From the NCBI RefSeq assembly GCF_000397205.1, contig NC_021237.1, forward strand, positions 6,083,001-6,147,000: a DNA stretch of 64,000 nucleotides. The letters are read 5' to 3'. The notes under the pieces were generated by a model, which saw only the letters and a program-made list of their open reading frames with translations, made no database searches and was not told where the DNA came from. Below are positions 35,561-51,482 of this stretch, one piece after another (position 1 is the first letter of the stretch; every line of letters starts with the position of its first letter). The stretch comes from Pseudomonas protegens CHA0. GTDB lineage: Bacteria > Pseudomonadota > Gammaproteobacteria > Pseudomonadales > Pseudomonadaceae. The position numbers and the translations under genes were made by a program.

Positions 35561-37444
35561 ATGAAGCGCAGCTCGTTGTCTCGTGCCTTTTCACTCAAGG
35601 GTGCGGCCGAAAATTACTGGCTCTCGTTATTACTATTCTCGATCCTGGTTATCGCCAGTTTCCTGTTGTTTGAACAGCAGATCCAACAACTGCTGAGTCA
35701 CCTGGGCACCTTCCTTCCCACCGATCCCGTACAGCGCCTGAGCCTGGCCCTGTTGCTGGTAACCCTGTTGGCCCTGGACGTGCTGCTGCCCGTGCCCTCC
35801 AGCCTGGTGGCACTGCTGGCCGTGGCGGCCCTGGGCGCCATTGGCGGCTACCTGGTGATCTTCATCGGCCTGTGCCTGGGGGCCAGCCTTGGCTACTGGC
35901 TGGGGGCCGGCTACTTCCGCCTGCTGTCCAATTGGCTGGGGCTCAGGACCTGGCAACCCGGGCAACTGGCCTATCGCCTCAGCACCCTGTCGCTCGTGTG
36001 CCTGCGTGGCGTGCCGGTGCTGGCAGAAACCTCGGTGCTGGCCGCCGGCATGCAACGTTATCCGCTGCGCCAGTTTCTCCTGGTCACCACCCTGGCCAAC
36101 GCCGGGCTGGCCCTGGCCTATGCCGCCATCGGCAGCCTGCTGGTGGAACAGAACGCCCTGCTGGCAACCATTCTCGCCAGCATGGTGCTGCCCGGGCTGT
36201 TCCTCGGCACCCGCAGCCTGTTCAAGAGCCGCCTGGCTCAGCCCCGGTACGATCAGGTGCATTCTCTGGAGGGCCGCTTCCAGGTGAGCTACCACTACCC
36301 GGTGCTGTTCACCGATCACATCTTCCAGGCCGACAACCCCTGCCTGCACCAGCAACTGACCCGGCAGAACCCGGGGCGCACCACGGTGCTGGTGTTTGTC
36401 GATGAACAACTGCTGCTGTGCTCGCCCCAGTTGCCGCTGCAGATCGACCACTACTTCAGCGCCCACGCCGCCGACCTGCATCTGCAGGCCGCACCGATCG
36501 CGGTGCCGGCCGGCGAATTGAGCAAGACCCCGGACGTGCTTCAGCAGCTGTACGCGCAGATGCTGGAACACGGCCTGGATCGCCACTGCTATGTGCTGGC
36601 CCTGGGCGGCGGCGCAGTGCTGGACGCAGTGGGCTATGCCTGCGCCACCTTCCATCGGGGCATGCGCCTGATCCGCATCCCGTCCACCGTGCTGGCGCAG
36701 AACGATGCCGGCATCGGGGTGAAGAATGGCATCAACGCCTTCGCCCAGAAAAACCTGCTGGGGGCCTTCTACCCGGCCACAGCGGTGATCAACGACTTCC
36801 AGCTGCTGCTCAGCCTTTCCCACCGGGACCAGATTGCCGGCCTGGCCGAAGCGGTCAAGGTCGCGGTGATCAAGGATGCCGCGTTCTTCCAGTGGATGGA
36901 GCAGCAGGCCGAAGCCCTGGCCGGTTTCGAGCACAACGCCAGCCGCTACGCCATTCACCGCTGCGCCGAACTGCACCTGGGCCATATCACCGGTGCCGGC
37001 GATCCGTTCGAACGGGGCAATGGCCGCCCCCTGGACTACGGGCACTGGGCCGCCCACAAGCTGGAGAATCTCAGCCAGCATCGCTTGCGCCACGGTGAAG
37101 CGGTGGCCGTGGGCATGGCCCTGGATGCGCTGTATGCCAACGCCAGCGGCCTGCTGTCCGACGCCGACTGCCAGCGCCTGCTGCGACTGCTGGACAGGCT
37201 CGGCTTCAACCTCTGCCCGCCGGAACTGAGCCTGCGGGACAGCCAGGGGCGTTCGCCGATCCTGGTGGGCCTGGAAGAGTTCCGCCAGCACCTGGGGGGC
37301 CAGCTGTCGATCCCGATGCTCAACCGCCTGGGCCAGTCGGTGGATGTGCACCAGATCGACATGCCGCTGATGGAACAGGCCCTGCTGCGCCTGGCGGGTT
37401 TCGGCGGGCCGGATTTCGCCTGGGGCCCGGGGTGCGCGCAATGA
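35561..37444 (+). CDS. eboD: DedA/VTT-like membrane domain fused to EboD (3-dehydroquinate synthase-like)
   Basis: A 627-residue fusion. Residues about 20-215 are hydrophobic, with LLPVPSSLVALLAVAALGA and LRGVPVLAETSVLAAGM, resembling the DedA/VTT (SNARE-associated) fold. Residues about 230-620 are a sugar-phosphate-cyclase domain of the DHQ-synthase superfamily: NAD-site GGGAVLDAVG near 348, STVLAQNDAGIGVKNG, and metal ligands E430, H495 and H511 by alignment, all retained. Family EboD is normally the soluble domain alone. The ATG at 35561 has AGAGGGA six bases upstream (a TTG lies just before). It is the first gene of the ebo operon; its product is unknown, and the fusion would anchor it at the inner membrane. 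Confidence 0.85.
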   Translation: MKRSSLSRAFSLKGAAENYWLSLLLFSILVIASFLLFEQQIQQLLSHLGTFLPTDPVQRLSLALLLVTLLALDVLLPVPSSLVALLAVAALGAIGGYLVIFIGLCLGASLGYWLGAGYFRLLSNWLGLRTWQPGQLAYRLSTLSLVCLRGVPVLAETSVLAAGMQRYPLRQFLLVTTLANAGLALAYAAIGSLLVEQNALLATILASMVLPGLFLGTRSLFKSRLAQPRYDQVHSLEGRFQVSYHYPVLFTDHIFQADNPCLHQQLTRQNPGRTTVLVFVDEQLLLCSPQLPLQIDHYFSAHAADLHLQAAPIAVPAGELSKTPDVLQQLYAQMLEHGLDRHCYVLALGGGAVLDAVGYACATFHRGMRLIRIPSTVLAQNDAGIGVKNGINAFAQKNLLGAFYPATAVINDFQLLLSLSHRDQIAGLAEAVKVAVIKDAAFFQWMEQQAEALAGFEHNASRYAIHRCAELHLGHITGAGDPFERGNGRPLDYGHWAAHKLENLSQHRLRHGEAVAVGMALDALYANASGLLSDADCQRLLRLLDRLGFNLCPPELSLRDSQGRSPILVGLEEFRQHLGGQLSIPMLNRLGQSVDVHQIDMPLMEQALLRLAGFGGPDFAWGPGCAQ

Positions 37445-38325
37445 CCCAATCGTCGCTAACCACCTGGCTGACCCTGGGCCGGGTCTCCAACCTGCCAACG
37501 GTATGGACCAATGCCCTGGCCGCCGCGCTGCTGGCCAGCAGCGCTACCACCCTGGCGCCGCCCTCGCCGCTGGTCTGGACCCTGCTGCTGGTGGCGCTCT
37601 CGGCGCTGTACCTGGCGGGCATGCTGCTCAACGACCTGATGGACGCCGACTGGGACCAGCAGCACCACAACCCGCGGCCGATCGTTCTCGGCCTAGTCAG
37701 CCGCGCCCAGGTCCGCCTGGCCACTGCCGCGCTGCTGCTGCTGGCGGCGCTGGCGGTCCTCGGCCTGAGCCGGATGATTGCCCAGCCCCACTGGCTGCTG
37801 GCCAGCGCCGGATTGCTGCTGCTGTTTATCCTTGGCTACAACCTTCTGCACAAGAAATATCCCCACAGCGTCTGGCTGATGGGCGGCTGCCGCTCGGCGT
37901 TGTACCTGACCGCCGCCGCCAGCCTGGCCATGCCGCCCCAGCCATTGTGGCTGTGCGCCGCGCTGCTGGGCACCTACATCGCCGGCTTGACCTACCTGGC
38001 CCGCCTGGAGCATCGCAACCAGTTGCTCAGCCGCCTGCCGCTGCTGCTCATGCTCAGCCCTCTGCTCCTGGCCGCCTATGCCGGCAACAGCGTGTTCTGG
38101 CTGGTCCTGCTGCTGTGGCTGGGCTGGTTGGGCTGGCACTACCAGCGCCACCTGGCCAACCCGCAACAACGGCAGGTCCGTGCCTTCATCGGTGCCGGGC
38201 TGGCCGCCCTGCCGCTGTTCGACGCCCTGGTGCTGGCGGTGGCCAACCAGCCCTTGGGCAGCCTGCTGTGTGTGCTGGTGTTCTTTCTGCTTCCCCACCT
38301 TCAACGCTGGATCAAGCCGACATGA
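37441..38325 (+). CDS. eboC: UbiA-like prenyltransferase-family protein EboC
   Basis: A 294-residue protein with about eight membrane helices. It keeps the first Asp-rich motif N64-D65-LM-D68-AD-W-D72 and HHNPRPIVLG after it, as in UbiA prenyltransferases. The second Asp-rich motif is not evident (YLARLEHRNQL at the expected place), as befits the EboC subfamily. Its ATG overlaps the eboD stop (ATGA). In cyanobacteria EboC is needed with EboA, EboB, EboE and EboF to move the scytonemin precursor into the periplasm. Confidence 0.85.
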   Translation: MTQSSLTTWLTLGRVSNLPTVWTNALAAALLASSATTLAPPSPLVWTLLLVALSALYLAGMLLNDLMDADWDQQHHNPRPIVLGLVSRAQVRLATAALLLLAALAVLGLSRMIAQPHWLLASAGLLLLFILGYNLLHKKYPHSVWLMGGCRSALYLTAAASLAMPPQPLWLCAALLGTYIAGLTYLARLEHRNQLLSRLPLLLMLSPLLLAAYAGNSVFWLVLLLWLGWLGWHYQRHLANPQQRQVRAFIGAGLAALPLFDALVLAVANQPLGSLLCVLVFFLLPHLQRWIKPT

Positions 38326-39089
38326 ACATGGATCCCATCGCCCCTGCGCCGCCGGCGCTTGCCATTCGCCATGGTGCCTTCGCCGAGCGCCAGCAATTGC
38401 TGGAACGGCATCTGGACGACGACAGCCGAAGCTGGTGGCAGCAAGCCCGGGAACAACTGGCCCGACAGCCCTCGGCCAACACCCTGATGCTGCTCAGCAG
38501 TCAGTGTCGGCGCCGCTTGGCCAGCGCACCGCAGGCCCCCAGCCCGGACTGCAACTGCACTCAACTGGCCCGGGCGCTACTGCTGGCCCAGTTGCTGGAG
38601 CAGCAGGCCGGCGCCGGGCAACTGGCCCTGTTGCGCCAGCTGTTTCTCTGGGGCGACGACCAGGAAAAGGCTGCCCTGCTCAAGGCCCTGGATGACCTCG
38701 ACAGCCAGGGGGCCAGCCTCGACCTGGCGCTCCAGGCCGGGCGCACCAACAACCGCGAGGTGTTCGCCGCCATCGCCCTGGACAACCCCTTTGCCGCGCG
38801 CCACTACCCGGAACGGGCCTTCCACCAGTTGGTGCTCAAGACCCTGGGCATGGGCCTGGACAGCCGCCACATCCACGGCCTGGTAGAACGGCGCAGCGTC
38901 GACCTCAACCAGTTGGCCCTGGACCTGATGGAAGAACAGCTGGCCGCCGAACGCGAGATCGCCGACGGCCTGCCCCAGGCCATTGCCTTCGAGCTGTTGA
39001 GCCAGGCCCAGTTGCAGCGCCTGCGAGGCCTGTACCAGCAGGGACGATTGCCTGCGCACTGGCGCGACCACTTCCCGGCAGGCGGTTGA
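38322..39089 (+). CDS. eboA: EboA-domain protein
   Basis: A 255-residue soluble helical protein with no signal peptide, coupled to eboC by ATGA overlap. The middle part (LFLWGDDQEKAALLKALDDL, REVFAAIALDNPFAARHYPE, FHQLVLKTLGMGL) carries the EboA pattern. Its molecular function is unknown in any organism; it is a marker of ebo clusters. The upstream open frame lies inside eboC and is a shadow. Confidence 0.82.
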   Translation: MNMDPIAPAPPALAIRHGAFAERQQLLERHLDDDSRSWWQQAREQLARQPSANTLMLLSSQCRRRLASAPQAPSPDCNCTQLARALLLAQLLEQQAGAGQLALLRQLFLWGDDQEKAALLKALDDLDSQGASLDLALQAGRTNNREVFAAIALDNPFAARHYPERAFHQLVLKTLGMGLDSRHIHGLVERRSVDLNQLALDLMEEQLAAEREIADGLPQAIAFELLSQAQLQRLRGLYQQGRLPAHWRDHFPAGG

Positions 39090-39140
39090 CCCCCGGCAGC
39101 TGAGCCCACGATTTTTCCCGCACTCAAGCAAGGAGCCACC

Positions 39141-40025
39141 ATGGCGAAGTACTTCGACCCGCACATTCATATGGTCAGCCGCACCACCGACGACTACCAG
39201 AACATGGCCGCCGCCGGCATCACCGGGGTCATCGAGCCTGCGTTCTGGCAAGGCCAGGCGCGCACCAGCGTCGGCAGCTTCATCGACTACTTCGACACCC
39301 TGCTGGGCTGGGAGCGCTTTCGCGCCAGCATGTTCGGCATCCACCATTTCTGCACCATCGGCCTCAACCCCAAGGAAGCCAACGACCTGTCGGTGGCCAA
39401 CGAAGTGCTGGAGATCCTGCCGCGCTACCTGGTCAAGGACGGCGTGGTAGCGGTAGGGGAAATCGGCTACGACGACATCACCCCGGAAGAAGATCGCTTT
39501 CTCGCCGCGCAACTGGAACTGGCCAGACAGTTCAACCTGCCGGTGCTGGTGCACACCCCGCACCGCGACAAGATCGGCGGCACCAAGCGCACCCTGGCGG
39601 TGATCCGCGAGGTGGGCATCGCCGAAAACCTGGTGATCATCGACCACCTCAACGAACTGACCCTGCCCCTGGTGCTGGACAGCGACTGCTGGCGCGGGCA
39701 CTCGATCTACCCCAACACCAAGATGTCGGAACAGCGCATGGTGGCCCTGCTGCAGGAATACGGCAGCGAAAAAATGGTGGTCAACAGCGCTGCCGACTGG
39801 GGCATCAGCGACCCGCTCAAAGTGCCCAAGACCGGCCAGGCCATGCTCGCCGCCGGCTTCAGCGAAGCCCAGGTGGAGCAGGTGCTGTTCCACAACCCGG
39901 TGGATTTCTTCGCCCAGAGCGGGCAGTTGGACAAGCAACTGGTGAGCACCCCGCTGCCGATCGACCAGCGCCGCCAGTGGCAGGACAACTCGGCCCTGAG
40001 GGGCCAGGAACCGGTGGTCAAATGA
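39141..40025 (+). CDS. eboB: TatD-like metal-dependent hydrolase EboB
   Basis: A 294-residue TIM-barrel hydrolase. Metal ligands are visible: H8 and H10 (DPHIH), E107 (VGEIGYDD), H138 (VLVHTPH), H169 (IIDHLNE) and D219 (NSAADWG). Fifty-one bases separate it from eboA, the largest gap inside the operon's first half. The substrate is unknown. Its membership in the TatD/EboB family is clear from these residues and the neighbours. Confidence 0.88.
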   Translation: MAKYFDPHIHMVSRTTDDYQNMAAAGITGVIEPAFWQGQARTSVGSFIDYFDTLLGWERFRASMFGIHHFCTIGLNPKEANDLSVANEVLEILPRYLVKDGVVAVGEIGYDDITPEEDRFLAAQLELARQFNLPVLVHTPHRDKIGGTKRTLAVIREVGIAENLVIIDHLNELTLPLVLDSDCWRGHSIYPNTKMSEQRMVALLQEYGSEKMVVNSAADWGISDPLKVPKTGQAMLAAGFSEAQVEQVLFHNPVDFFAQSGQLDKQLVSTPLPIDQRRQWQDNSALRGQEPVVK

Positions 40026-41260
40026 GTGCCCGGGCCGGCTGGAACGCCGCGCAGATCGGCTACTGCAGCAACGTGCACCCGGCCCGTGACGTGGCCGGCC
40101 TGCGGGCGTCGATCCAGGAACATTTCCAGGGCGTGCGGCGTCAGCGTGGGCTGGCGGTGCAGGACAGCGGCCTGTGGATCAGCGCCCAGGCCGCCGCCGA
40201 ACTACAGGTGCCCGAGGTGCGCGAGGCCTTCATCGAACTGCTGCACGATTGTGGCCTGCGCCTGACCTCGCTCAACGGTTTCCCCTATGGCCAGTTCCAT
40301 GAAGGCGCAGTTAAGGCCGAGGTCTACCGGCCCACCTGGGCCGAACCCCAGCGCCTGGAATACAGCCTGCAACTGGCGCATCTGCTGGCCGCCGCTCTGC
40401 CCCTGGATTGCCAGCAGGGGGTGATTTCCAGCGTGCCCTTCGGTTATGCCGCCACCTGGGACGAGGCCCAGCAGCAACAGGCCGAAACCCACCTGCGGCA
40501 ACTGACCGCCGAGCTGGCCAGCCTGCATCGCAGCAGCGGCAGGAAGATCCTGGTGTGCCTGGAGATGGAGCCGGATTGCGTGCTGGAAAACACCGATCAG
40601 GCCCTGGCCTTTTTCAAGCACTGGCAGGCCACCGATCCCCATCATGGCTACCTGGCGCTGTGCTTCGACGTCTGCCATCAGGCGGTGGTCTTCGAAGACT
40701 GCTACCAATCCCTGCAACGGCTGCTGGATGCGCGGGTTCCGGTGGGCAAGATCCAGCTGTCCACCGCCCTTATCTGCCAGTTGCCGTTTGCCGATCGCCC
40801 ACGCCGCCAGCAGGTACTGCAGGCCCTGGGCAACTTCGCCGAAGCCACCTACCTGCATCAGGTCAAGGCCCGGGATATGGCCGGGCAGCTACTGGCCTGG
40901 GCCGACCTGCCCGGGGCCCTGGACGCCGCCGAACCGGCCCAGGGGCAATGCCCCGAGTTGCGCATTCACTTTCATGTGCCGCTGTTCAGCGAACAGTTTC
41001 TACTGGCCGAGCTCAGCGGCAGCCAGCAGGCCTTGCTGCGCACCTTCGACTTTCTCGCCGCGCACCCGAACTTCCAGCCGGTGCTGGAGGTGGAAACCTA
41101 CAGCTGGAACGTGCTGCCCGGTGCGCTGCGCCCGGACAGCGAGCAGGCCTTGCTGCAAGGCATCGCCGCCGAGCTGCAATGGGTCGAGGGCCAACTGCGC
41201 CAGCGGCATCTGCTGCGTACCCACTCGTCTGCCCTGGAGGCTCCGGCCCATGCCTTCTGA
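40022..41260 (+). CDS. eboE: EboE metabolite traffic protein
   Basis: A 412-residue protein with the layout of a xylose-isomerase-like TIM barrel. It opens with GWNAAQIGYCSNVHPARDV, a family-specific stretch, then LTSLNGFPYGQFHEGAVK, LVCLEMEPDCVL, ALCFDVCHQAV and LRIHFHVPLF, which hold the likely metal-binding Glu/Asp/His residues. It overlaps eboB by 4 nt and eboF by 11 nt. The role in moving an Ebo-dependent metabolite is known only genetically in cyanobacteria. Confidence 0.87.
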   Translation: MSARAGWNAAQIGYCSNVHPARDVAGLRASIQEHFQGVRRQRGLAVQDSGLWISAQAAAELQVPEVREAFIELLHDCGLRLTSLNGFPYGQFHEGAVKAEVYRPTWAEPQRLEYSLQLAHLLAAALPLDCQQGVISSVPFGYAATWDEAQQQQAETHLRQLTAELASLHRSSGRKILVCLEMEPDCVLENTDQALAFFKHWQATDPHHGYLALCFDVCHQAVVFEDCYQSLQRLLDARVPVGKIQLSTALICQLPFADRPRRQQVLQALGNFAEATYLHQVKARDMAGQLLAWADLPGALDAAEPAQGQCPELRIHFHVPLFSEQFLLAELSGSQQALLRTFDFLAAHPNFQPVLEVETYSWNVLPGALRPDSEQALLQGIAAELQWVEGQLRQRHLLRTHSSALEAPAHAF

Positions 41261-42695
41261 ACGCCCGCGCCAGCCCTTGCTGCTGATCAATGTGGTGGGC
41301 CTGACACCCAGCCTGCTGGGGCCGGCCACGCCGCGGATCAACAACCTGCTGCAACGGGCGCGAATGGCCCGGCTGCGCCCGGTGTTCCCCGCCGTGACCT
41401 CCACCGTGCAGGCCTCGATCCTCACCGGGCTGCCGCCTTCGGAACACGGCATCGTCGGCAACGGCTGGTATTTCCGCGATCAGGCCGAGGTGCGTTTCTG
41501 GCTGCAGCCCAACGCGCTGATCCAGGGTGAAAAGGTCTGGCAGGCGCTGCAACGGGAGATCCCCGGCCTGCGCTGCAGCCAGCTGTTCTGGTGGTTCAAC
41601 ATGTATGCCCAGGTGGAGGCAGCCATCACCCCGCGCCCCCACTACCCGGCCGACGGGCGCAAGATGTTCGGCCTCTATTCGTCGCCTCCGGGGCTGCACG
41701 AACGCATCGAACAGCAGATCGGCGAGTTCCCCTTTCCGAGCTTCTGGGGCCCGGCCGCGGGGATTGCCTCCAGCCGCTGGATCGTCGACTGCGCCATCGC
41801 CGAGTTCCAGATCAGCCGCCCCGACCTGCAACTGATCTACCTGCCGCACCTGGACTACAGCCTGCAACGCCTGGGGCCGGAGCATCCGTCCATCAGCGAC
41901 GAAGTGCGGGCCATCGACCATGAAGTCGGGCGCCTGCTGGATTTTGCCCAGCAGCAAGGCGCGGCCGTGATGCTGGTCTCCGAATACGGCATCGAGGCGG
42001 TGCAGCAGTCCATCTCGATCAACCGCGTGCTGCGCGAGCAAGGTCTGCTGCAGGTACGTCGTTCACTGAGCTGGGAGCTGCTGGACCCCGGCGCCAGCGC
42101 GGCCTTCGCCGTGGTCGACCACCAGATCGCCCACGTCTATGTGCGCCAGCCCGAGGACATTGCCCGGGTCAAGGCCCTGCTGCTGCGCCAGCCCGGTATC
42201 GAGCAGGTGCTGGACAGGAGCGAGCAGCGGGCCTGCCAGCTCGATCACCCACGCAGCGGCGAGCTGGTGGCGGTGGCCGCCCCGGGCTTCTGGTTCGATT
42301 ACTACTACTGGTTCGACGACCGCCTGGCCCCGGATTTCGCCCGCACTGTGGATATCCACCGCAAGCCGGGCTACGACCCACTGGAGCTGTTCATCGACCC
42401 GGCGATCCGCTTTCCCAAGCTGCGGGTCGCTCGCCGGCTGCTGCAGAAGAAGCTCGGCTTTCGCTACTACATGGACCTGATTCCCCTGGACACCTCACTG
42501 ATTCGCGGCAGCCACGGACGCTTGCCCAGCAGTGCCGAGGCAGGGCCCCTGCTCATCACCGATTGCGATTTACCCCTGCCGGCGCACCTGCCGGCCACCG
42601 CGGTAAAGCACCTGCTCCTAGAGCATTTCCTAGGGCGCCCCTATGACGATACGGCTCAGGCCAAGGAGATTCCATGCGGCGAACCATCCCTATAG
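41250..42695 (+). CDS. eboF: Alkaline-phosphatase-superfamily pyrophosphatase/phosphodiesterase EboF
   Basis: A 481-residue enzyme. FPAVTSTVQASILTGLPP (46-63) followed by HGIVGNGW is the nucleophile region of nucleotide pyrophosphatases/phosphodiesterases, with T50 as the likely nucleophile. LIYLPHLDYSLQRLGPEH and VSEYGIE correspond to metal-site segments, the latter differing from the usual SDHGM. It overlaps eboE by 11 nt and the next gene by 22 nt, tying the ebo half of the operon to the unknown half. Confidence 0.85.
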   Translation: MPSERPRQPLLLINVVGLTPSLLGPATPRINNLLQRARMARLRPVFPAVTSTVQASILTGLPPSEHGIVGNGWYFRDQAEVRFWLQPNALIQGEKVWQALQREIPGLRCSQLFWWFNMYAQVEAAITPRPHYPADGRKMFGLYSSPPGLHERIEQQIGEFPFPSFWGPAAGIASSRWIVDCAIAEFQISRPDLQLIYLPHLDYSLQRLGPEHPSISDEVRAIDHEVGRLLDFAQQQGAAVMLVSEYGIEAVQQSISINRVLREQGLLQVRRSLSWELLDPGASAAFAVVDHQIAHVYVRQPEDIARVKALLLRQPGIEQVLDRSEQRACQLDHPRSGELVAVAAPGFWFDYYYWFDDRLAPDFARTVDIHRKPGYDPLELFIDPAIRFPKLRVARRLLQKKLGFRYYMDLIPLDTSLIRGSHGRLPSSAEAGPLLITDCDLPLPAHLPATAVKHLLLEHFLGRPYDDTAQAKEIPCGEPSL

Positions 42696-43855
42696 TCGTG
42701 CTCGGTGTGTTGAGCGGCCTCGCTCACGCACAGACCACGCCCGCCTTCAATTGCAGCAACTTCCTGACGTTCAATGGTGACCAGGCCGGCACCCTGAGCA
42801 CCTTCAAGCAGAGCCCGGAAACCATGGCATGGAACTGGTTTGTGTGCCTCAACCAGCCGGCCGGCTCCGGTAGCCCGGAGCGGCTCTGGGAGACGTTCAA
42901 ACCATCCGATGAGGTCTACCTGAGCAAGGGGCAGGCTCCCCAGCCCTACAGCACCCAGGCCAACCTGCCGAGCCAGGTGCAGACCCAGGCGCAGAAGATC
43001 CCGGGCATGAACACCAGCGGGCTGTTCCTCAACCTGGGCAACGACACCGACGGCAGCACCGACAACGGCACCCAGCAGGTCGATGGCCTGGCCCTGGAAA
43101 TGGGCAACCAGGTGCCGGAAGCGCAACGGGGCCAGTCGGTGCGTTTTCACATGTTGATGGGCCAGGACACCTTCAACTACATCGTCCAGCAGAAGATCTA
43201 CAACCGGAACGGCATTGCCGCCCTGACCAGCAGCCTGAACTTTCCCGCCACGGCCTGGGAGCTGAAGACCTCCTGGTTGTGGATCGGCAGCGATAGCACC
43301 TTCCAGGCGCAACTGGCAAAGGATGGCTACTTCATCGCCCAGGCCTACTACGTCGACAAGCAGGGCCAATACCACACCGGCTACGCCGGCCTCAGCGGCA
43401 TGCACGTCATCAACAAGCTGACCCACGACTGGGTCTGGACCACCTTCGAGAACCGCAACAACAGCAAGTACACCGTGACCAACGGCACGCCGGCCAAGCC
43501 CATGACCAACATCACCGGGCCCACTGACGCGGCCCAGCCGGTGAATGCCACCTTCCAGCAGCAGAACCCCACGCTGGCCCAGTACGAGTTGATCGGCGTG
43601 CAGTACGACCAGGCCCAGGCCGAGCCCAAGCTGCTGGCCAACTCCCAGCTGGAATCAGCCTTCCAGAGCCACTCCTCGTGCCTGGCCTGCCACAACACCG
43701 CGGCCTATTCGAGCAACAACACCTACTTCAACTTCGCCTTGAAAGAGGATGGCGGGATCGTCTACCCCACCACCGTACTACCGGACTCCGACTTCGTCGG
43801 CTACCAGAAACTGGACTACGTCTGGTCGCTCAAACGCGCCCAGTGGCAGCGCTAA
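42674..43855 (+). CDS. Exported protein with one C-terminal CXXCH, paralogue of the 47299 gene
   Basis: A 393-residue protein with a signal peptide (MRRTIPIVVLGVLSGLAHA). The single CXXCH (C336-LAC-H340) could bind a c-type haem, but no cytochrome c fold or axial Met motif is plain. Segments AWNWFVCLNQPAG, LWETFKPSDEVYL, FNYIVQQKIYN and GLSGMHVINKL...WVWTTFEN align by eye with the protein encoded at 47299. The ATG has AAGGAG five bases upstream and lies inside eboF (22-nt overlap). Function unknown; the link to the EDB phenotype is inference. Confidence 0.8.
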   Translation: MRRTIPIVVLGVLSGLAHAQTTPAFNCSNFLTFNGDQAGTLSTFKQSPETMAWNWFVCLNQPAGSGSPERLWETFKPSDEVYLSKGQAPQPYSTQANLPSQVQTQAQKIPGMNTSGLFLNLGNDTDGSTDNGTQQVDGLALEMGNQVPEAQRGQSVRFHMLMGQDTFNYIVQQKIYNRNGIAALTSSLNFPATAWELKTSWLWIGSDSTFQAQLAKDGYFIAQAYYVDKQGQYHTGYAGLSGMHVINKLTHDWVWTTFENRNNSKYTVTNGTPAKPMTNITGPTDAAQPVNATFQQQNPTLAQYELIGVQYDQAQAEPKLLANSQLESAFQSHSSCLACHNTAAYSSNNTYFNFALKEDGGIVYPTTVLPDSDFVGYQKLDYVWSLKRAQWQR

Positions 43856-43865
43856 GGAGCAGCTC

Positions 43866-46277
43866 ATGAGCGTCTTGAACTTTCCCCGGATCTACTTCAA
43901 TGGCCACATGTTCTGGAACCCACCGACGGCCAACAACAACGACGTTTTCCCGCTATATGACGCGGTGAAGATGCGCATGAACTGGCCGTTCCTGTCCTAC
44001 TACGGGATCAACGACCAGAACGCCCCGCAACAGCTGATGCCCTGGACCATCGCCCCGCTGGCCTACGAGAACGTGCCGGACTACGTGCTGCAGGTGCCCA
44101 CCAATGGCTCGCCCAGTGGCTACCCGATGATTCCCGCCGAATGGGACCTGTTCGGCGACAACGCCTGCGGCTTGGTCGACTACGAGCAGACCCGCTCGGT
44201 GATCGTCGGTGGCGAGTTCCAGGCCAACACCTACATCGACAACGACCCGCTGGTGAACAAGTGTTACCAGTTGCAGGGCAACCCGTTCGGCAGCGCCGCG
44301 CCCACAGCCGCGCGCTTCGTCGATATCAGCCCCTGGCAGAACACCTTCACCGCCCTGTACTTCGACAAACTGGTACTGGGGGACGCCACCTGCGGCCTGA
44401 CCTTGAAGCGCCGGTACCGCATGCTCGACCGCTTCCTCAACTTCAACTGGGGGGCCTTCGGCGGCTTGAGCTACGTAACTACCACCTGGCAGACCTGCTT
44501 CCCGAAAGACCAGCTGCAGTGGATCGTCGGCGACTCGCAACTGCTGAAGACCCTGCAACAGGAGATGATCAACCAGAACGCCAAGGGCCTGATGTTCCGG
44601 TTCACCACCTACCTGACCTTCTACGACAAGAACGGCATCTTCAACGACTTCCCGGTGGTGGACAGCCACTCCAAGACGCCCGAAGCCATGGCCGCGCTGC
44701 AGGCGATGTACCAGAAGGGCCTGGATAACGTCGCCGACATCTTCTTCAACCCGGCCTACAGCCGCACCGCCGGTACTCTGGGCCTGTGGTTCGACAATGA
44801 ATACCCCACCGCTCCGGCTGGCCGGCGCCTGGAACCCAAGGCCCCGGTACCGGTGTGCAAGGCGGTTCCCAGAGACACCAAGCCTGCGGCCATGACCCTG
44901 GGGGTGATCAGCGCCCAAGTGCACGACAACACCCTGTCCCTGGACCTGGGCAATACCTTTCCGTTCTATCCCGCCGGAGACAGCGCCGCACTGCCGCCCA
45001 CCAACACTGACCTGAGCCAGGGAATTCCGGTGCCCGGGAAATACCTGGCCGGTGATTACGACATCGGGGTACGGCCCACTGGCGGCGCTTTCCACAAAGT
45101 CGCCAGTTTTGGCCTCGAACAGTATCGCCAGACCGCCTTCGACAAGCGCGCCGGCCTGCTGGACCTGCCCATCAGCCCCGCCGACCAGGCCGCGTTGCAA
45201 CAGGGCGCCCTGGAGCTGCAGTTGCAGGGCAGCCAGGAACTGGTCGCCGCCGCCCAGAATATGTGGACCGCCGAGGTCCTCGACAGCGGCTGCTTCATCG
45301 ATGTGGGCGACACTCGGGTCCTGAGCATCATGGTGCAGTACGACGGCCTGCCCGCGCCCGCGGGCACCGCGCTGTGGGTGGCGGAGTACAACAACGCCTA
45401 CATGCTGACCACCAGCGACTATTACCTGGCCTTCAGTAACGCGGCCAACTTCACCCTGTTCAACAACTACCCGAAGGACCCCGGGAGCAACACGTCGAAC
45501 CGACCGCAGTTCGTCGGCACCCAGACCGCTGAAAGCCTGTTGCACGTGGGCAGCGGCCGCCGGCTCAGCGCGGTGCTGAACGTCGAGGACAGCGAGCCAT
45601 CCGAGCCCATGCTCTACCAGAGCTTCCTGACCAAGCCCTCGGCTGTGGCCCTGAGCCCCCGCCTGCAGTTCACCAATGGGCAGGCACGCAGCGGCACCCT
45701 GGCAGACCCGCTGAACGCCACCGTGCAGTACAGCCTGGCGCAGATCCTGACCGACGCCAATGGCATCGCCCAGGTATCGGTCAAGGCCGTGGCGGCCGGC
45801 TTCCCGACCTTGCGCTTCTTCATCCAGGACGGCCAGCAGCAACCGACGGTGCCCTTCAGCTTCAACTACACCGACGCCTACACCGACTTCCTTGCGCCCC
45901 TGCGGGTCCTGCCCCAGGAGCCGGAGATGCTCAAGGACTTCATCGACTGCTGGAACCGGGTGTGCACCCAGGACGACGCCAGCGTGCGGATCTGGAAGGA
46001 GTTCATCTTCCCCAGAATCCTCCAGCCTTTCTATTACCTCTACCCGATCATGAACAAGTTCATGCCGCTCAACTCCCTGCAACGCATCGAGGGCGCGATC
46101 AACCAGTTCATCGTGCTGATCAGCAAGGACTACCAGGAGGAAAGCACCCTGGCCATGCCGATCACCCGGGACCTGCCGCAAAGCCGGCGCAGGGTGCTGG
46201 AAATCTGGGCCCAGGACCTGGTGAGCAAGGGCTACCCACCGATCCCGCTGAAACTCAACGACTACCCCCACGGCTGA
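43866..46277 (+). CDS. Large protein of unknown function, paralogue of the 48589 gene
   Basis: An 803-residue protein without signal peptide or membrane helix. It begins SVLNFPRIYFNGHMFWNPPT and shares matches along its length with the 608-residue protein at 48589: GLMFRFTTYLTF / GIVLRFVMFEMC, RTAGTLGLWF / RVIGTLATAF, and a C-terminal part with MPITRDLPQSRRRVLEIW / SMSPSQRSLLTAYL. The last pattern recalls C-terminal segments of cytochrome-like and oxidase-linked proteins, without proof. AAGGAG precedes the ATG, 10 bases after the CXXCH gene. No known domain was recognised. Confidence 0.78.
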   Translation: MSVLNFPRIYFNGHMFWNPPTANNNDVFPLYDAVKMRMNWPFLSYYGINDQNAPQQLMPWTIAPLAYENVPDYVLQVPTNGSPSGYPMIPAEWDLFGDNACGLVDYEQTRSVIVGGEFQANTYIDNDPLVNKCYQLQGNPFGSAAPTAARFVDISPWQNTFTALYFDKLVLGDATCGLTLKRRYRMLDRFLNFNWGAFGGLSYVTTTWQTCFPKDQLQWIVGDSQLLKTLQQEMINQNAKGLMFRFTTYLTFYDKNGIFNDFPVVDSHSKTPEAMAALQAMYQKGLDNVADIFFNPAYSRTAGTLGLWFDNEYPTAPAGRRLEPKAPVPVCKAVPRDTKPAAMTLGVISAQVHDNTLSLDLGNTFPFYPAGDSAALPPTNTDLSQGIPVPGKYLAGDYDIGVRPTGGAFHKVASFGLEQYRQTAFDKRAGLLDLPISPADQAALQQGALELQLQGSQELVAAAQNMWTAEVLDSGCFIDVGDTRVLSIMVQYDGLPAPAGTALWVAEYNNAYMLTTSDYYLAFSNAANFTLFNNYPKDPGSNTSNRPQFVGTQTAESLLHVGSGRRLSAVLNVEDSEPSEPMLYQSFLTKPSAVALSPRLQFTNGQARSGTLADPLNATVQYSLAQILTDANGIAQVSVKAVAAGFPTLRFFIQDGQQQPTVPFSFNYTDAYTDFLAPLRVLPQEPEMLKDFIDCWNRVCTQDDASVRIWKEFIFPRILQPFYYLYPIMNKFMPLNSLQRIEGAINQFIVLISKDYQEESTLAMPITRDLPQSRRRVLEIWAQDLVSKGYPPIPLKLNDYPHG

Positions 46278-46343
46278 GCCGCAAAGGCCAGCCCATGGAA
46301 TGCCGGGCGACCCCGTCGCCCGGCGCTTTCAAAGGAGTGTCAG

Positions 46344-47285
46344 ATGAACGCCAGTCTCTTCAAGCAACTGCTGTTGGCCGCCAGCCTGCTGAGCGCCAGC
46401 CAAACGCTATGGGCCGAGACCTACCCCGACAACGTCTACTTCAACATGGGCGTGCACAACGACCGGGGGTGCGACGCCAAGACCAACAACTGCATCGCCA
46501 AGCGCAAACCCGGCGAGCCGGCCGATCCGCTCTACCCGGCAACCTGGGTCAGTGACTGGATCATGTACCGGGTCACCGCCAACTACGTGAAGAACCCACC
46601 GCCCTACAGCAGCCCGCCCAGCACCCTGAAACCGGCCGACTACACCGTGTCCCGGGGCACCAGCTACTACGACAACGACTATGTGCCGGCCGACAAGGAC
46701 GGCACCGGGGCGATGATGGAGCACTACGAGAAGTACTGCCTGCCGATCTTCCCGATCAAGGACAACAACTACACCTGCTCCTTCGTTTCCCTGGGCAACA
46801 AGGCCTACTTCCTCACCTACCCCGAGGACCGGCCAAAGGACATGCCGGCCTGCTGCATGTTCTCGCCCATGAACCACCCGCCGCGCCGGGACTTCATCAA
46901 GCACCTGCCCTACAGCGCCGCCCGCAGCCAGCATATGGATGGCAGCGTGCAAGCCTACGCGCTGGAGATCCCGGTCCAGCCGAGCCCGATTCTGTTCGGC
47001 TATGCGTTCTACAAGAAAGCCAGCAGCGACGGCCCGGGCCAGCCGGCCTATCAGCATCCGCAATCGTTCTATTTCTCCGGTGACGAGAGCGTCGCCAACG
47101 CGCCAATCGTCAGCCAGAACTACCTCAACTGGCGCACCGAGAAACCAAATCCGGCCAAGACCTGGGACCAGGTGGCGAAGATGTGCCCGGCCAACCCGCC
47201 GGACTGCCAGCTCTTCACGCCACCGCCATCGCTGAAGAACGGTGCGCGGCCGCAGTGGAACCAACTTTCGCCCCCCTCGCCATGA
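46344..47285 (+). CDS. Exported Cys-containing protein of unknown function
   Basis: A 313-residue protein with signal peptide MNASLFKQLLLAASLLSASQTLWA. The mature part has nine cysteines in small groups (GCDAKTNNC, EKYC, YTC, PACC, MC...DC), suggesting disulfides in the periplasm or outside the cell, and is Tyr/Pro rich (YFNMGVHNDRGCD, CCMFSPMNHPPRRDF). No family was recognised. AAGGAG sits eight bases before the ATG. It lies between the two paralogous gene pairs. Confidence 0.75.
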   Translation: MNASLFKQLLLAASLLSASQTLWAETYPDNVYFNMGVHNDRGCDAKTNNCIAKRKPGEPADPLYPATWVSDWIMYRVTANYVKNPPPYSSPPSTLKPADYTVSRGTSYYDNDYVPADKDGTGAMMEHYEKYCLPIFPIKDNNYTCSFVSLGNKAYFLTYPEDRPKDMPACCMFSPMNHPPRRDFIKHLPYSAARSQHMDGSVQAYALEIPVQPSPILFGYAFYKKASSDGPGQPAYQHPQSFYFSGDESVANAPIVSQNYLNWRTEKPNPAKTWDQVAKMCPANPPDCQLFTPPPSLKNGARPQWNQLSPPSP

Positions 47286-47298
47286 CAGGAGCCGCCTC

Positions 47299-48585
47299 AT
47301 GAACCCTTGGAGCCGTTTCACCGCCCTGTTGTTGCTTGGCCTGGGCAGCCAGCAGGCCAGCGCCCTGCAGCCCAGCGCAGCGGCGCCGCAGACCAGCTGC
47401 CCGCCCACGGCTGCGGTGCCTGCTGCGGGCGCGTCGCAGCAGGCTTTCGATCAATACAGCTGGAAGATGTTCATCAACCTGAACTGGCCGGCCCAGGCGG
47501 GACAGCGCGGAGTGGCCGATTGCAGCAAGCCCCTGGGCAGCCCTGGCGATACCGTGTGGCAGACCTACAAGAGCGTCAGCGAGACCTTCCTCCCCGGGGC
47601 CAAGAATCCGGGCCTCTGGAACTCGCAACTGCCCCGCAGAAATCTCAGCCTGATCAACATCGCCGCGGTCAAGAACACCCAGGTGGTGCAAGCGGACAAC
47701 CAGGCGGTGGGCGGCTGGCTGATTGACCAGCGCGGCAACCCGACCTACTACGACATCGCCGCCAACGAGGTCTCCTACAACTACATCGTCGATAACGACT
47801 TCTACAACGCGGTGGTCGTCAACGCAGCGAAGAACATCAGCTTTCCCAACAACGCCGGCGAGATCAAGAGCAGTTGGCGCATCCTCAGCAGCGCCGACGA
47901 CAGCAGCCGCTATCTGACAATGAAGGCCCTGGTCACCCAGTTCGACAGTCAGGGACAGCCCAACGGCACCACCGAGGCCACTTTGGGATTGGTGGGGTTG
48001 CACATCATCAGCAAGGTGGAGGGGTTCCCGCAGTGGGTCTGGTCGACCTTCGAGCAGGTCGACAACGTGCCTCCCAAGACCCAGCTGGGGGGCCGTTGGG
48101 TGGACCAACCGGTCTCGGGGATTTTCTACTCCTACTTCAACGCCAAGGCGCCCGCCGAAAGCCTCAACCAATCCCCCTGCCTGTGGCAGCAACAAGCTGG
48201 ACAAATGGTCTGTACCCCAAAACCCGGTAACAGCTTCAGTACCCCGGACCCACTGAACCGGGTCACCCCGATCACGGACGTCACCCAGCAGATCAATACC
48301 CAATATCAGGGCGATCCGCAGGTACAGCAAAGCGTGTTCAAGTACTACCAGTTGATCACCACCCAACGCCCGCAGTCGCCGGATAACCCCGGCAACCCCT
48401 TGGGGCAACCAACGCCATCACTGTCGGCCAACGTCACCATGGAAAGTTATATCCAGACCAACAGCAGCTGCATGAACTGCCATTCCATGGCCGCACCGCT
48501 CAACAGCCAGTACAAGAGCGACTTCTCCTTCCTGTTCAGATTCGCCCAAGCCCCAGTCACCAGCGTCGCCAAGGATAAGGAATAG
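47299..48585 (+). CDS. Exported protein with one C-terminal CXXCH, paralogue of the 42674 gene
   Basis: A 428-residue protein with a signal peptide (MNPWSRFTALLLLGLGSQQASA). It carries C391-MNC-H395 close to the C-terminus and segments YSWKMFINLNWPA, VWQTYKSVSETFL, VSYNYIVDNDFYN, LGLVGLHIISKV and WVWSTFEQVDN, which match the first CXXCH protein. AGGAG precedes the ATG by seven bases. The family looks like haem- or metal-binding exported proteins, but haem attachment is only inferred. Confidence 0.8.
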   Translation: MNPWSRFTALLLLGLGSQQASALQPSAAAPQTSCPPTAAVPAAGASQQAFDQYSWKMFINLNWPAQAGQRGVADCSKPLGSPGDTVWQTYKSVSETFLPGAKNPGLWNSQLPRRNLSLINIAAVKNTQVVQADNQAVGGWLIDQRGNPTYYDIAANEVSYNYIVDNDFYNAVVVNAAKNISFPNNAGEIKSSWRILSSADDSSRYLTMKALVTQFDSQGQPNGTTEATLGLVGLHIISKVEGFPQWVWSTFEQVDNVPPKTQLGGRWVDQPVSGIFYSYFNAKAPAESLNQSPCLWQQQAGQMVCTPKPGNSFSTPDPLNRVTPITDVTQQINTQYQGDPQVQQSVFKYYQLITTQRPQSPDNPGNPLGQPTPSLSANVTMESYIQTNSSCMNCHSMAAPLNSQYKSDFSFLFRFAQAPVTSVAKDKE

Positions 48586-48588
48586 ATC

Positions 48589-50415
48589 ATGAGCATATTG
48601 AATGGACCCCGACTGAACTTCTGGGGCGGCATCTCTACCGACGTCAGCGTGCCAAACAACTCACCGACCTTGCCCAATGGCATCGCCACCTCCCTTGAGC
48701 TGTTCGACCTGACCACCTCGACCGTGGCGGACCAGGCCAAGACCTATAGCGATGAGCACCTGTACCAACTGATCAACGCCCCGGACCCGAGAATCGGCCC
48801 CAACAGTCGGTACACGGCCGGCGGCTGGAACCACTATGGCGAACACGTGGTGACGCTGCACAACGCGCTGATCAGTTCCCAAGGCACCCCGGGCAACATT
48901 GCGCTGGAAGGGGATATGGTCGGACAGCCGGTTTACCTGCTCGGCTCCGTGACCCCCGGCACCGGACAAGGTCCCTACTCCGGCCCAATGATGGTCGACC
49001 TGGACCCCACAGCCAGCACCACGACCCAGATCTTTGTCGGAGGCCTGCAGATCGGCAACGGCAACACGCCTCAGCTCTTGATTCGCTGGGATACCGTGTG
49101 CAGCAGTTTCGACCTCAATACCCGGGTGCTGGAGCCTGCAACCATGGACTCGCCGGGCTCCTTCCACGCCAGCGGCACCTTTCAACTGACCTTTCCGCTG
49201 AGCAGCATCGTCAGCTACAACAAGGAAAGTGCCGGACTCCGGGCCCTGATTGAGGCGCCCAACGCTACCGGGATCGTGCTGCGTTTCGTGATGTTCGAAA
49301 TGTGTCCGACCCTGACCACCGAGCAACTGAATGCCGACTACGCAGCCAACCAGTTCAGCCCGAACCCGAGCATCGGCCGGGTCATCGGTACCCTGGCCAC
49401 GGCGTTTACCGATGAGCCGCAGATCTGTCCGCCGGGCCGCCAAATCATCAATGCCGACAAAGACCTGAACATCAACAGCGTGGCCTATGCCGAGGTCGCC
49501 AACGGGCAACTGAGCATCGACATGGTCAACCTGATCCCCAAGCAGACGTTCAGGGCTGTACGCGACGACATCACCAGCCCCATCGGCCCCAACGCCGACT
49601 TCGGGACCGTCACCATCGCGGCCGGAACCACGCCCCTGGCGAGCTTCGAGCCCAGCAATCCGCTGCTGCAAGACTACTACCGGTACGGCGGCATCATCGA
49701 CGTGCCGCTCAACTCGACCCAGACACAGGTGGTGCAGAGCACGCCCTTGTGCATTAGTGCCCCCGGGACCACCCGCAACCCGGCGCTGTCGGCCCCCGAA
49801 TGCCCGTATCGGGTCTACAGCGATCAGCGCAACACCTACCTCGATCCCGACAGCACAGGCGTGCAGATCACCTTGCAAGTACGTTACCTGGGAGCGCCGG
49901 TGCAGAAGGCTACGCCGATCAGCATCGATGCCTCGGCGACCGCCGTCTATCAAGCCAACCGCTACTGGAACTTCCTGGAGCTTCCGAACTCGGTAACGGT
50001 GCCGGCCGGTCAACCTTCGGTGAGTTTCAACGTCGTTCCCGTCGCCGGTTCCAATACCCAGGCTGGCTTCACCACACTGACCTACACCATCGACAACAAC
50101 CCTCTGACCCAGAGCTTCAGCAACTTCCGCAAGTACGCCTGGAGCGACTTCGGCGTTCCAACAGGCAGCATCGTCACCTGGGAACAGGCGTTTCAAAACG
50201 TGCTGCGCTTTCATTACCTGGCCTTCCCCGCCATGTCGCGCTACATCCAGCTCAATCAGCCCGACGCGGTGATGGGTTACAAACAGGCGATCCTGGCCCG
50301 GATCTCCCCCGAGTACCAGAACACCACCTTGTACATGTCCGTGGTGCGTTCGATGTCGCCGAGCCAACGCTCCCTGCTGACCGCCTATCTCAATGGCACG
50401 CCCTGGCAGCCTTGA
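48589..50415 (+). CDS. Large protein of unknown function, paralogue of the 43866 gene
   Basis: A 608-residue protein without signal peptide. It opens SILNGPRLNFWGGISTDVS, similar to the opening of the 803-residue paralogue, and is shorter mainly in its middle. It starts three bases after the CXXCH gene's stop, so each large protein follows a CXXCH protein. Beta-rich stretches such as VQITLQVRYLGAPV suggest extended-sheet domains. Its base use is slightly less GC-rich than the ebo genes. Function unknown. Confidence 0.78.
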   Translation: MSILNGPRLNFWGGISTDVSVPNNSPTLPNGIATSLELFDLTTSTVADQAKTYSDEHLYQLINAPDPRIGPNSRYTAGGWNHYGEHVVTLHNALISSQGTPGNIALEGDMVGQPVYLLGSVTPGTGQGPYSGPMMVDLDPTASTTTQIFVGGLQIGNGNTPQLLIRWDTVCSSFDLNTRVLEPATMDSPGSFHASGTFQLTFPLSSIVSYNKESAGLRALIEAPNATGIVLRFVMFEMCPTLTTEQLNADYAANQFSPNPSIGRVIGTLATAFTDEPQICPPGRQIINADKDLNINSVAYAEVANGQLSIDMVNLIPKQTFRAVRDDITSPIGPNADFGTVTIAAGTTPLASFEPSNPLLQDYYRYGGIIDVPLNSTQTQVVQSTPLCISAPGTTRNPALSAPECPYRVYSDQRNTYLDPDSTGVQITLQVRYLGAPVQKATPISIDASATAVYQANRYWNFLELPNSVTVPAGQPSVSFNVVPVAGSNTQAGFTTLTYTIDNNPLTQSFSNFRKYAWSDFGVPTGSIVTWEQAFQNVLRFHYLAFPAMSRYIQLNQPDAVMGYKQAILARISPEYQNTTLYMSVVRSMSPSQRSLLTAYLNGTPWQP

Positions 50416-50429
50416 ACAAGGAGAAGACC

Positions 50430-51482
50430 ATGCCCGTTGCTCTGCATATTCCCACCCAGCTCGAGCAGGTGCTGCGACCGGATCACGTCATCGCCGAGGG
50501 CCTGCTCAACCCTCGCGGGGTTTGCCTGCAAGGCGATGGCAGCCTGCTGCTGGCGGAAGCCGGCTCGGGCCTGCCGGACCAGCCGTTCAGCGGCCGCATC
50601 AGCCGCCTGCGTCCGGATCCGGGCCAGCCGGGCGCCTACCTGCCGCCTCAGGTCGTGGCTCAGGGTTTTCGTTCGATGAACATGCAATCGCGCATGCTGC
50701 GCGACGAAATCATGGGCCTGTCGGACATCGCCCTGGGCGACGGGCGCTGCCTGGCCAGCCAAACCGACTACGTCGCCGGCTCCAAGCTGCTGGACCTGCA
50801 ATACAACCCGCCCGAGCCGCTGTTCCATAGTCGCGGCAACCTCAACTCGCTGTGCTATCACCCGTCGCGCCGCAGCTGGCTGGCGGTCAAGCCCGATAGC
50901 AACCAACTGGTGGAGTTCACCGAAGGCGGTGAACAAGTCCTGGCGCAACTGCCCGATCTGGATCAGGGCCAGGAAGCCGTGCCGGTGACCTTGGTGCACG
51001 AGCCGCAGACGGATGCCGTGCTGATCAGCCTGTTCTCCGGCGAGCTGCGCCGGGACCCGGCGCGGATGGGTATCGACTTCGCCGACAAGGCGGGCCAGGT
51101 GATCCGGGTCTGGCCCGAGAGCGGCAGGATCGAGGTGCTGATTCGCGGACTGCAACTGCCCACCGGGCTGGCGCTGGACCCGCAGGAGCGGATCCTGGTG
51201 CTGGAACTGTGCGACCGGCTGCTGCAACCGTTGCCGCCGGACTGGGCCGGCGAAGTCCTGCACGGCGGCTTCGCCCGCTTCAGCGGCCGCCTGCTGCGCT
51301 GCGATTTGCAGCAACGCAGCGTGCAAGTACTCGCCAAGGGCCTGGATACGCCTTCCAACCTGTGCTGCGTCGGAGACGCGGTGCTGGTGAGTGAAGGCAT
51401 GGGCCTGAGTGGGCGGCCGATTCCGACGCCGGAGCAGCAGGTGGTCGCACTGAGCGGCCGACTGCGGCGAGTGGCGCTTTGA
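50430..51482 (+). CDS. Beta-propeller protein, ScyD/ScyE-like
   Basis: A 350-residue protein built of repeated SMP-30/NHL-like blades. VIAEGLLNPRGVCLQGDGSLLLAEAG, LSDIALGDG, LQLPTGLALDPQERILVLE and LDTPSNLCCVGD recur at blade-like spacing. Its opening resembles ScyD/ScyE proteins, which in cyanobacteria sit with ebo genes in scytonemin clusters. No signal peptide is seen (MPVALHIPTQLEQVL). AAGGAG precedes the ATG. It is the last gene of the operon, 14 bases after its neighbour. Ligand or catalytic role unknown. Confidence 0.75.
   Translation: MPVALHIPTQLEQVLRPDHVIAEGLLNPRGVCLQGDGSLLLAEAGSGLPDQPFSGRISRLRPDPGQPGAYLPPQVVAQGFRSMNMQSRMLRDEIMGLSDIALGDGRCLASQTDYVAGSKLLDLQYNPPEPLFHSRGNLNSLCYHPSRRSWLAVKPDSNQLVEFTEGGEQVLAQLPDLDQGQEAVPVTLVHEPQTDAVLISLFSGELRRDPARMGIDFADKAGQVIRVWPESGRIEVLIRGLQLPTGLALDPQERILVLELCDRLLQPLPPDWAGEVLHGGFARFSGRLLRCDLQQRSVQVLAKGLDTPSNLCCVGDAVLVSEGMGLSGRPIPTPEQQVVALSGRLRRVAL

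Follow-up and report, generated by a model that had tools for sequence, protein, structure and literature searches.

VioB-type modules beside putatively exported CXXCH proteins in an ebo-linked gene run of Pseudomonas protegens CHA0

The window analysed here is a stretch of 64,000 nucleotides from Pseudomonas protegens CHA0 (contig NC_021237.1, positions 6,083,001 to 6,147,000). It contains a compact run of twelve + strand genes (35561-51482 in window coordinates), putatively one operon, in the order eboD, eboC, eboA, eboB, eboE, eboF, A1, B1, X, A2, B2 and S. A1 and A2 are putatively exported proteins with a CXXCH motif and B1 and B2 are larger leaderless proteins; F denotes the ferritin-like protein (PF12902) that stands next to B in other bacteria. 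Sequence comparison shows homology of B1 and B2 to the VioB N-terminal module over its length. We see an even chance that the run is an EDB-type, i.e. ebo-linked, natural-product cluster built around a dismantled VioB-type enzyme that has acquired a different redox partner. An earlier note on this DNA had described the two A-B pairs as a duplicated two-gene module. The observation is real, and a re-partnered VioB-type module would be the better reading of it.

The VioB hidden Markov model TIGR04492 (cut-off 1250 bits) matches B1 with 24.9 bits (4e-6) and B2 with 25.1 bits, the B2 match spanning VioB positions 1-382. VioB proteins scoring above the curated cut-off were obtained for comparison from three of eight genomes searched (Pseudoduganella violacea, Massilia and Chromobacterium sphagni), and the reference VioB reaches 1851 bits with the same model. 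In BLASTP, residues 1-601 of B2 align to residues 1-582 of Massilia VioB (E 1e-13), while B1 aligns over residues 1-374 only (E 2e-9). A combined B1 and B2 profile scores 75 bits on Massilia VioB and 55 bits on C. sphagni VioB; the best of 303 shuffled or reversed controls, 101 of them derived from a misread row, scores 0.7 bits. Profile comparison with the VioB pair gives 98% for the B2 family and 97%, over the first 426 positions, for the B1 family. Row L154, read in a wrong frame, is excluded from the profile comparison and from all statements on B and VioB. The earlier note had known of no described function for either family, which is too pessimistic for B, the N-terminal half of VioB.

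In VioB the ferritin-like domain PF12902 begins at residue 604-612, so that B corresponds to the part before it (about 585 N-terminal residues). Pfam detects PF12902 neither in B1 and B2 nor in the whole genome of the window, and the ExxH motif is absent from all four B proteins checked. Elsewhere, a 1016-aa protein fuses a B module to PF12902 (locus L045), and a stand-alone B of 681 aa lies near a divergent open reading frame (ORF) judged F-like by eye (L043). No fused B-F protein was confirmed in viral contigs. A Pfam scan of two VioB proteins finds no model for their N-terminal half, and a sequence search of solved structures gave nothing useful, with one weak match of the B2 profile (Lmo2119, E 0.0095).

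The neighbour of B is A in some clusters and F in others. A translated search of plasmids with B2 yields two records, one from Azospirillum sp. B510 and one from Gloeothece verrucosa. The Gloeothece record has an A-B pair in divergent orientation to a second group, eboB-eboD-B'-F-X; F of this group is PF12902, and its X shares 52% identity with that of the window. The order in Azospirillum sp. B510 is B-F-X, with B separate from, and adjacent to, PF12902. B beside a separate F, mostly with X, occurs in cyanobacteria, Azospirillum, Lysobacter, Chromobacterium, Massilia, Myxococcales and Acidobacteriota, and one further genome (G154) has the order VTT-X-B-F (VTT assigned by eye). A scan of named genomes anchored on X took in 80 of 94 relatives, spread over six classes and four phyla: Gammaproteobacteria (54 loci), Betaproteobacteria (12), Alphaproteobacteria (9), Cyanophyceae (2), Myxococcia (2) and Terriglobia (1). 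B matches shorter than 1,300 bases were dropped, and the search around X biases the count of A and F toward X-bearing clusters. Among the 116 B genes of the 80 loci, 79 follow A, one precedes A (Shewanella), 33 adjoin F, three adjoin neither and none adjoins both. Two of the three without A or F run off short contigs (L084, L116); the counting rule itself places the Shewanella case under neither, which then holds four. Pseudomonas, whose rows are not independent, contributes 69 of the A neighbours, and the other genera contribute 10 A (11 with Shewanella), 33 F and all four that the counting rule places under neither. Per locus, 44 have A only, 27 F only, eight neither, and one both, on different B genes (Alteromonas a30). 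Of the loci of at least 18 kb, those with two or more ebo genes number 36 of 37 in the A type and 9 of 18 in the F type.

A ferritin-like partner supplied to B from elsewhere in the genome, with A unrelated to it, is extremely improbable. One Pseudomonas genome with A-B pairs (G376) does carry a PF12902 gene elsewhere, but it is located next to a GMC-like gene, of a class that A adjoins too, and PF12902 has no match in the other 11 of the 12 such genomes, the window's own included and some of them drafts. The F-GMC locus of G376 is a second setting in which A and F share a partner class. Two B-F pairs are also found in the F-type clusters L086, L087, L090, L094 and L098; two B modules per cluster are thus a wider feature than the Pseudomonas pairs. 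In L151 (Pseudomonas sp. TH31), eboD, eboA, eboF, X, A and both B are each split into two ORFs, from either a decayed cluster or a poor draft.

In the B tree, from which row L126_B7664 was left out and in which Pseudomonas-type loci were thinned, B1 groups with the B of Gloeothece (support 88) and Xanthobacteraceae (99), and B2 with the B of Kangiellaceae (99). The A or F label changes three times on this tree, at least two changes being forced by well-supported branches, with long-branch warnings. In the best A trees A1 joins A proteins from the A-B pairs of Gloeothece and Xanthobacteraceae, and A2, apart from A1, joins A proteins associated with GMC enzymes and tyrosinases. Holding all B-partnered A proteins together costs 6.5 log units, and a single clade is not rejected by the approximately unbiased (AU) test (p 0.116; long-branch rows left out). 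A double recruitment of A to B, favoured by the best trees, was dropped as a clean claim, the difference not being significant. More tentatively, at somewhat below even confidence, the clusters may represent a new class of oxidative module. Its VioB N-terminal half would be paired with a c-type cytochrome where other bacteria have the ferritin-like half; the two partners would lie on opposite sides of the inner membrane, connected by Ebo export, and A and F would be interchangeable redox parts, swapped for one another two or more times on a common scaffold.

The two pairs themselves are as first described, with ORFs of 393 (A1), 803 (B1), 428 (A2) and 608 (B2) residues. A1 and A2 are homologues (E 2e-19 when compared as a pair, with 25% identity over 398 columns) with one CXXCH apiece, at residue 336 in A1 and 391 in A2. 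B1 and B2 share 20% identity over 531 columns (E 3e-7) and 27% over 77 C-terminal columns (E 9e-7). A single BLASTP at database scale is not significant for B1 and B2 (E 0.04-0.05), but profiles settle their homology: in a small ORF set, the B1-family profile finds a B2-type ORF with E 3e-14 and the B2-family profile a B1-type ORF with E 4e-22. Among 119 genomes of the genus, the 12 with a full-length A1 match are also the 12 with a full-length B1 match, and the two matches are adjacent every time; the A tally rises to 24 of 119 when distant A relatives without B1 are counted. In all 12 Pseudomonas clusters (11 fetched regions and the window) the A1-B1 pair lies beside ebo genes, with three to six of these within reach upstream and S downstream. 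A-B pairs extend beyond Pseudomonas as well (Gloeothece and others).

The second unit comprises three genes, X-A2-B2, all of which are present in nine of the 12 Pseudomonas clusters and all absent from the other three (L019, L020, L021). These three and the Gloeothece plasmid region possess a type-1 pair without type 2 in the fetched regions, and Kangiellaceae L118 possesses a type-2 unit without type 1. As the two types occur separately, they are not the result of a simple local duplication. One two-gene machine duplicated within this operon, the reading of the earlier note, is accordingly very improbable: both halves are homologous, and the AU test allows one clade of B-partnered A, but B1 and B2 group with different foreign B, and the best A trees separate A1 from A2. 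Of the proposed two-part machine, the two homologous and tightly linked pairs stand, and their duplication inside one operon is not supported.

CXXCH, a c-type heme-attachment motif, is kept in 95 of 96 aligned rows of the A family. One histidine (residue 244 of A1) is kept in 95 of 96 rows as well, and no methionine occurs among the columns kept in at least 90 of the 96, which makes a histidine instead of a methionine possible as second heme ligand. Among known cytochrome c domains of Pfam, A1 matches none and A2 only PSCyt3, at an E of 0.1, below cut-off. The leader hydropathy in an alignment of 30 A1-type sequences has a median of 2.12 and a minimum of 0.45. Away from ebo genes, A adjoins GMC oxidoreductases (by Pfam and record annotation), tyrosinases and a SagB-type gene, and so looks, by its gene neighbourhoods, like a re-used exported redox partner. 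In Pseudomonas, A-family loci away from ebo genes occur at about 18 places, eight of which were fetched: five have a GMC-like neighbour (called by Pfam in two and by the N-terminal motif alone in three), one a tyrosinase nearby, one a GH31 enzyme and one no recognised partner. Among three loci of other genera, L011 and L012 have a GMC-like ORF by eye and L013 has none. The plasmid loci L069 and L070 have no recognisable partner, L071 carries no annotation, and L068 belongs to a TOMM-type cluster in which no SagB is listed. Proteins of 577 aa (L066:3035-4768, Paracoccus) and 607 aa (L035:7690-9513, Pseudomonas), both without a Pfam match, stand between a tyrosinase and an A-type protein.

The variety of these neighbours also fits a different view, in which A is a generic accessory of electron transfer or maturation, B is structural or regulatory, and the link to VioB chemistry is only ancestral. 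The absence of both the ferritin-like part and ExxH from B (4/4) is in line with it; yet B is kept beside ebo genes in all 12 Pseudomonas clusters with A-B pairs, and twice in nine of them, and we consider this view improbable.

N-terminal hydropathy, a crude index taken as the maximum over 12 residues, is 2.48 for A1, 1.75 for X, 1.48 for A2, 1.26 for S, 0.91 for B2 and 0.48 for B1. By this index a hydrophobic N-terminus is present in A1 and X and absent, in agreement with the earlier note, from B1 and B2, and A2 and S hardly differ; the leader of A2 is accepted by sight. Physical contact between A and B is doubtful because A has a leader and B has none. We favour a relay, in which substrate, compartments, heme loading and electron path of the re-partnered VioB-type module are inferred to be as follows. 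B1 and B2 would bind and process tryptophan-derived units of aryl-pyruvate type in the cytoplasm, and the Ebo proteins would carry the intermediate across the inner membrane. On the far side of this membrane, A1 and A2, assisted by X, would withdraw electrons from the intermediate through a covalent heme and feed them into the respiratory chain. A cytochrome would thus take over the oxidation for which other bacteria use the ferritin-like part.

Several points weigh against this mechanism. Leaderless B and exported A would lie in different compartments unless B exits by an unfamiliar route, so that a replacement of F by A within one enzyme is not established. The alternation of A and F could be a coincidence of gene order, and its changes on the B tree involve long branches. 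Related Pseudomonas inflate the A count, and outside the genus F is the more frequent neighbour (33 against 10 or 11). The single-sequence similarity of B1 to VioB is weak (25 bits against a cut-off of 1250), and a VioA-type tryptophan oxidase is not recognised among the twelve genes (Pfam on 12, NCBIfam on nine). In a draft of Symploca (L073:5546-7474), X and the ferritin-like F form one ORF of 642 aa behind an N-terminal leader, possibly a gene fusion or an assembly fault in one draft contig. From this arrangement F would seem able to function outside the cytoplasm, which blurs the compartment argument.

The same Symploca ORF favours another explanation, namely a physical A-B complex, a two-subunit oxidase beyond the inner membrane, with B exported without a classical leader and the heme of A as catalytic centre. 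Leaderless subunits are carried out by their partners in GMC-type FAD (flavin adenine dinucleotide) dehydrogenases and by tyrosinase caddies, and these precedents speak for it too, as do the tight adjacency of A and B across phyla and the leaderless neighbours of A, namely B1, B2 and the tyrosinases of three of three loci checked (0.38-0.83). No route for B is known, and GMC, its small subunit and SagB beside A have ambiguous values (1.40-2.43), so that leaderless partners are not the established rule; we regard the two-subunit oxidase as unlikely. A general rule that partners of A are leaderless does not hold on these values. An export of B on A by the twin-arginine route was rejected: the strict motif occurs in one of 72 A sequences, although 58 of 72 have a plain RR within the first 12 residues.

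X is present in 7 of 198 family genomes. The flanks fetched around it in L149, L150, L079 and L082 (Sphingomonas-type; Chromobacterium sphagni and C. subtsugae) contain no B, A or F, and X hence is not an absolute marker. S is found in 41 of 44 A-type loci and in none of 27 F-type loci, i.e. it travels with A and not with F. An identification of S as ScyE was rejected, the score with NF033206 (56.9 bits) lying under the cut-off of 80. A separate VTT-like gene precedes X-B-F in Lysobacter-type loci (L063:7269-8000), and EboD of the window carries an N-terminal VTT. A VTT-like match is present in 9 of the 16 F-type loci with at most one ebo gene, a hint that VTT is part of the module.

The genes of the run are listed in Table 1. 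All six of eboA-F are present together, in the order eboD-C-A-B-E-F; D, C, B and F are supported by Pfam or NCBIfam (the EboC model under its cut-off), and A and E by position. The end of eboF and the start of A1 overlap by 22 bases. The following gaps measure 10 (A1-B1), 66 (B1-X), 13 (X-A2), 3 (A2-B2) and 14 bases (B2-S), and S closes the run. A purine-rich stretch of AGGA or AAGGAA type lies 5' of the starts of A1, B1, A2 and B2. The stretch 34860-35560, 5' of eboD, has a G+C content of 44.7%, against 64-66% on both sides, and probably contains the control region of the run.

Table 1. Genes of the run in window coordinates, with the support for each assignment.
Gene	Assignment	Position	Strand	Support
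eboD	VTT membrane domain fused to 3-dehydroquinate-synthase-like enzyme	35561..37444	+	Pfam PF09335, PF01761, PF24621; NCBIfam PRK06203 623 bits
eboC	UbiA-like prenyltransferase	37432..38325	+	Pfam UbiA 2e-13; NCBIfam EboC 74.6 bits, under 250 cut-off
eboA	Name by position	38322..39089	+	No Pfam match; retained in sampled clusters wherever the fetched region extends to it
eboB	TatD-like hydrolase	39141..40025	+	Pfam TatD; 56% identity to Gloeothece TatD gene
eboE	Name by position	40022..41260	+	No Pfam match; retained in sampled clusters
eboF	Type I phosphodiesterase/pyrophosphatase-like	41250..42695	+	Pfam PF01663 1e-62
A1	Putatively exported CXXCH (c-type cytochrome-like) protein, 393 aa	42674..43855	+	
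B1	Stand-alone VioB N-terminal module, leaderless, 803 aa	43866..46277	+	TIGR04492 4e-6; BLASTP to VioB 2e-9; profile match
X	Exported conserved protein accompanying B-F or A-B genes	46344..47285	+	Homologues beside B-F: Azospirillum 46%, Gloeothece 52% identity
A2	Second putatively exported CXXCH protein, 428 aa	47299..48585	+	
B2	Second stand-alone VioB N-terminal module, 608 aa	48589..50415	+	BLASTP to VioB 1e-13, residues 1-601
S	ScyD/ScyE-like protein, without clear leader	50430..51482	+	NF033206 56.9 bits, E 2e-15, under 80 cut-off

In the parts of the literature covered, the non-ebo genes of nematode-repelling EDB-type clusters had no assigned role. The link to VioB offers a concrete chemical hypothesis for them, the oxidation or coupling of tryptophan-derived units, and gives a reason for the neighbouring ebo genes. 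It singles out the VioB N-terminal half as an independent mobile module, and A as a broadly re-used family of exported CXXCH partners. The same scaffold is accompanied by a ferritin-like protein in one set of bacteria and by a cytochrome-like protein in another, which amounts to a natural experiment. The literature search returned no statement tying ebo or EDB genes to VioB; the original EDB papers, outside that search, may say more. The terms VioB, ferritin and cytochrome do not occur in PMC6282210, PMC9235831 and PMC5133447 (cytochrome c in the last).

In the synthesis of violacein, a purple pigment, VioB joins two tryptophan-derived units, dimerising indole-3-pyruvate imine; it belongs with RebD and StaD to the iminophenyl-pyruvate dimer or chromopyrrolic acid synthases. 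The homology of B1 and B2 covers the N-terminal part of VioB, about 585 residues; they lack its C-terminal ferritin-like domain and have a cytochrome-like neighbour instead. VioB has also been described, in the part of the source consulted, as containing heme b and having catalase activity (PMC9705886). No vioA-, vioC-, vioD- or vioE-like gene of the violacein system is recognised among the twelve genes of the window.

The setting of A recalls the three-part FAD dehydrogenases, which consist of a large GMC subunit, a small PF12318 subunit and a cytochrome c subunit: in Azospirillum ramasamyi, A (annotated as cytochrome C) is followed by a GMC oxidoreductase and, between the two, by a small protein annotated as sorbitol dehydrogenase. 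This small protein matches PF12318 with 24.4 bits (cut-off 24.2), without the first 26 profile positions, and its counterpart in L031 has no Pfam match. The textbook cytochrome subunit of these dehydrogenases has three CXXCH motifs, whereas A has one, and the partner in the window is B.

The scytonemin pathway (ScyA-F with ebo) shares with the window the ebo genes and a ScyD/E-like gene; its product is tryptophan-derived and its late steps take place outside the cytoplasm, the Ebo proteins moving the scytonemin monomer to the periplasm, as the section consulted reports (PMC6282210). It differs in that S of the window has no clear leader and scores under the family cut-off, and that no ScyA, ScyB or ScyC is recognised among the twelve genes. 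In description the run also resembles the EDB cluster of P. fluorescens NZI7, in which non-ebo ORFs with signal peptides accompany a full ebo set (PMC6282210, section 8); the window's cluster likewise has all six ebo genes, together with putatively exported proteins. The likeness is one of description, and the two clusters may be orthologous. EDB expressed in E. coli turns tryptophan into indoles, two of which moderately or mildly repel C. elegans according to the excerpt consulted (PMC9655573).

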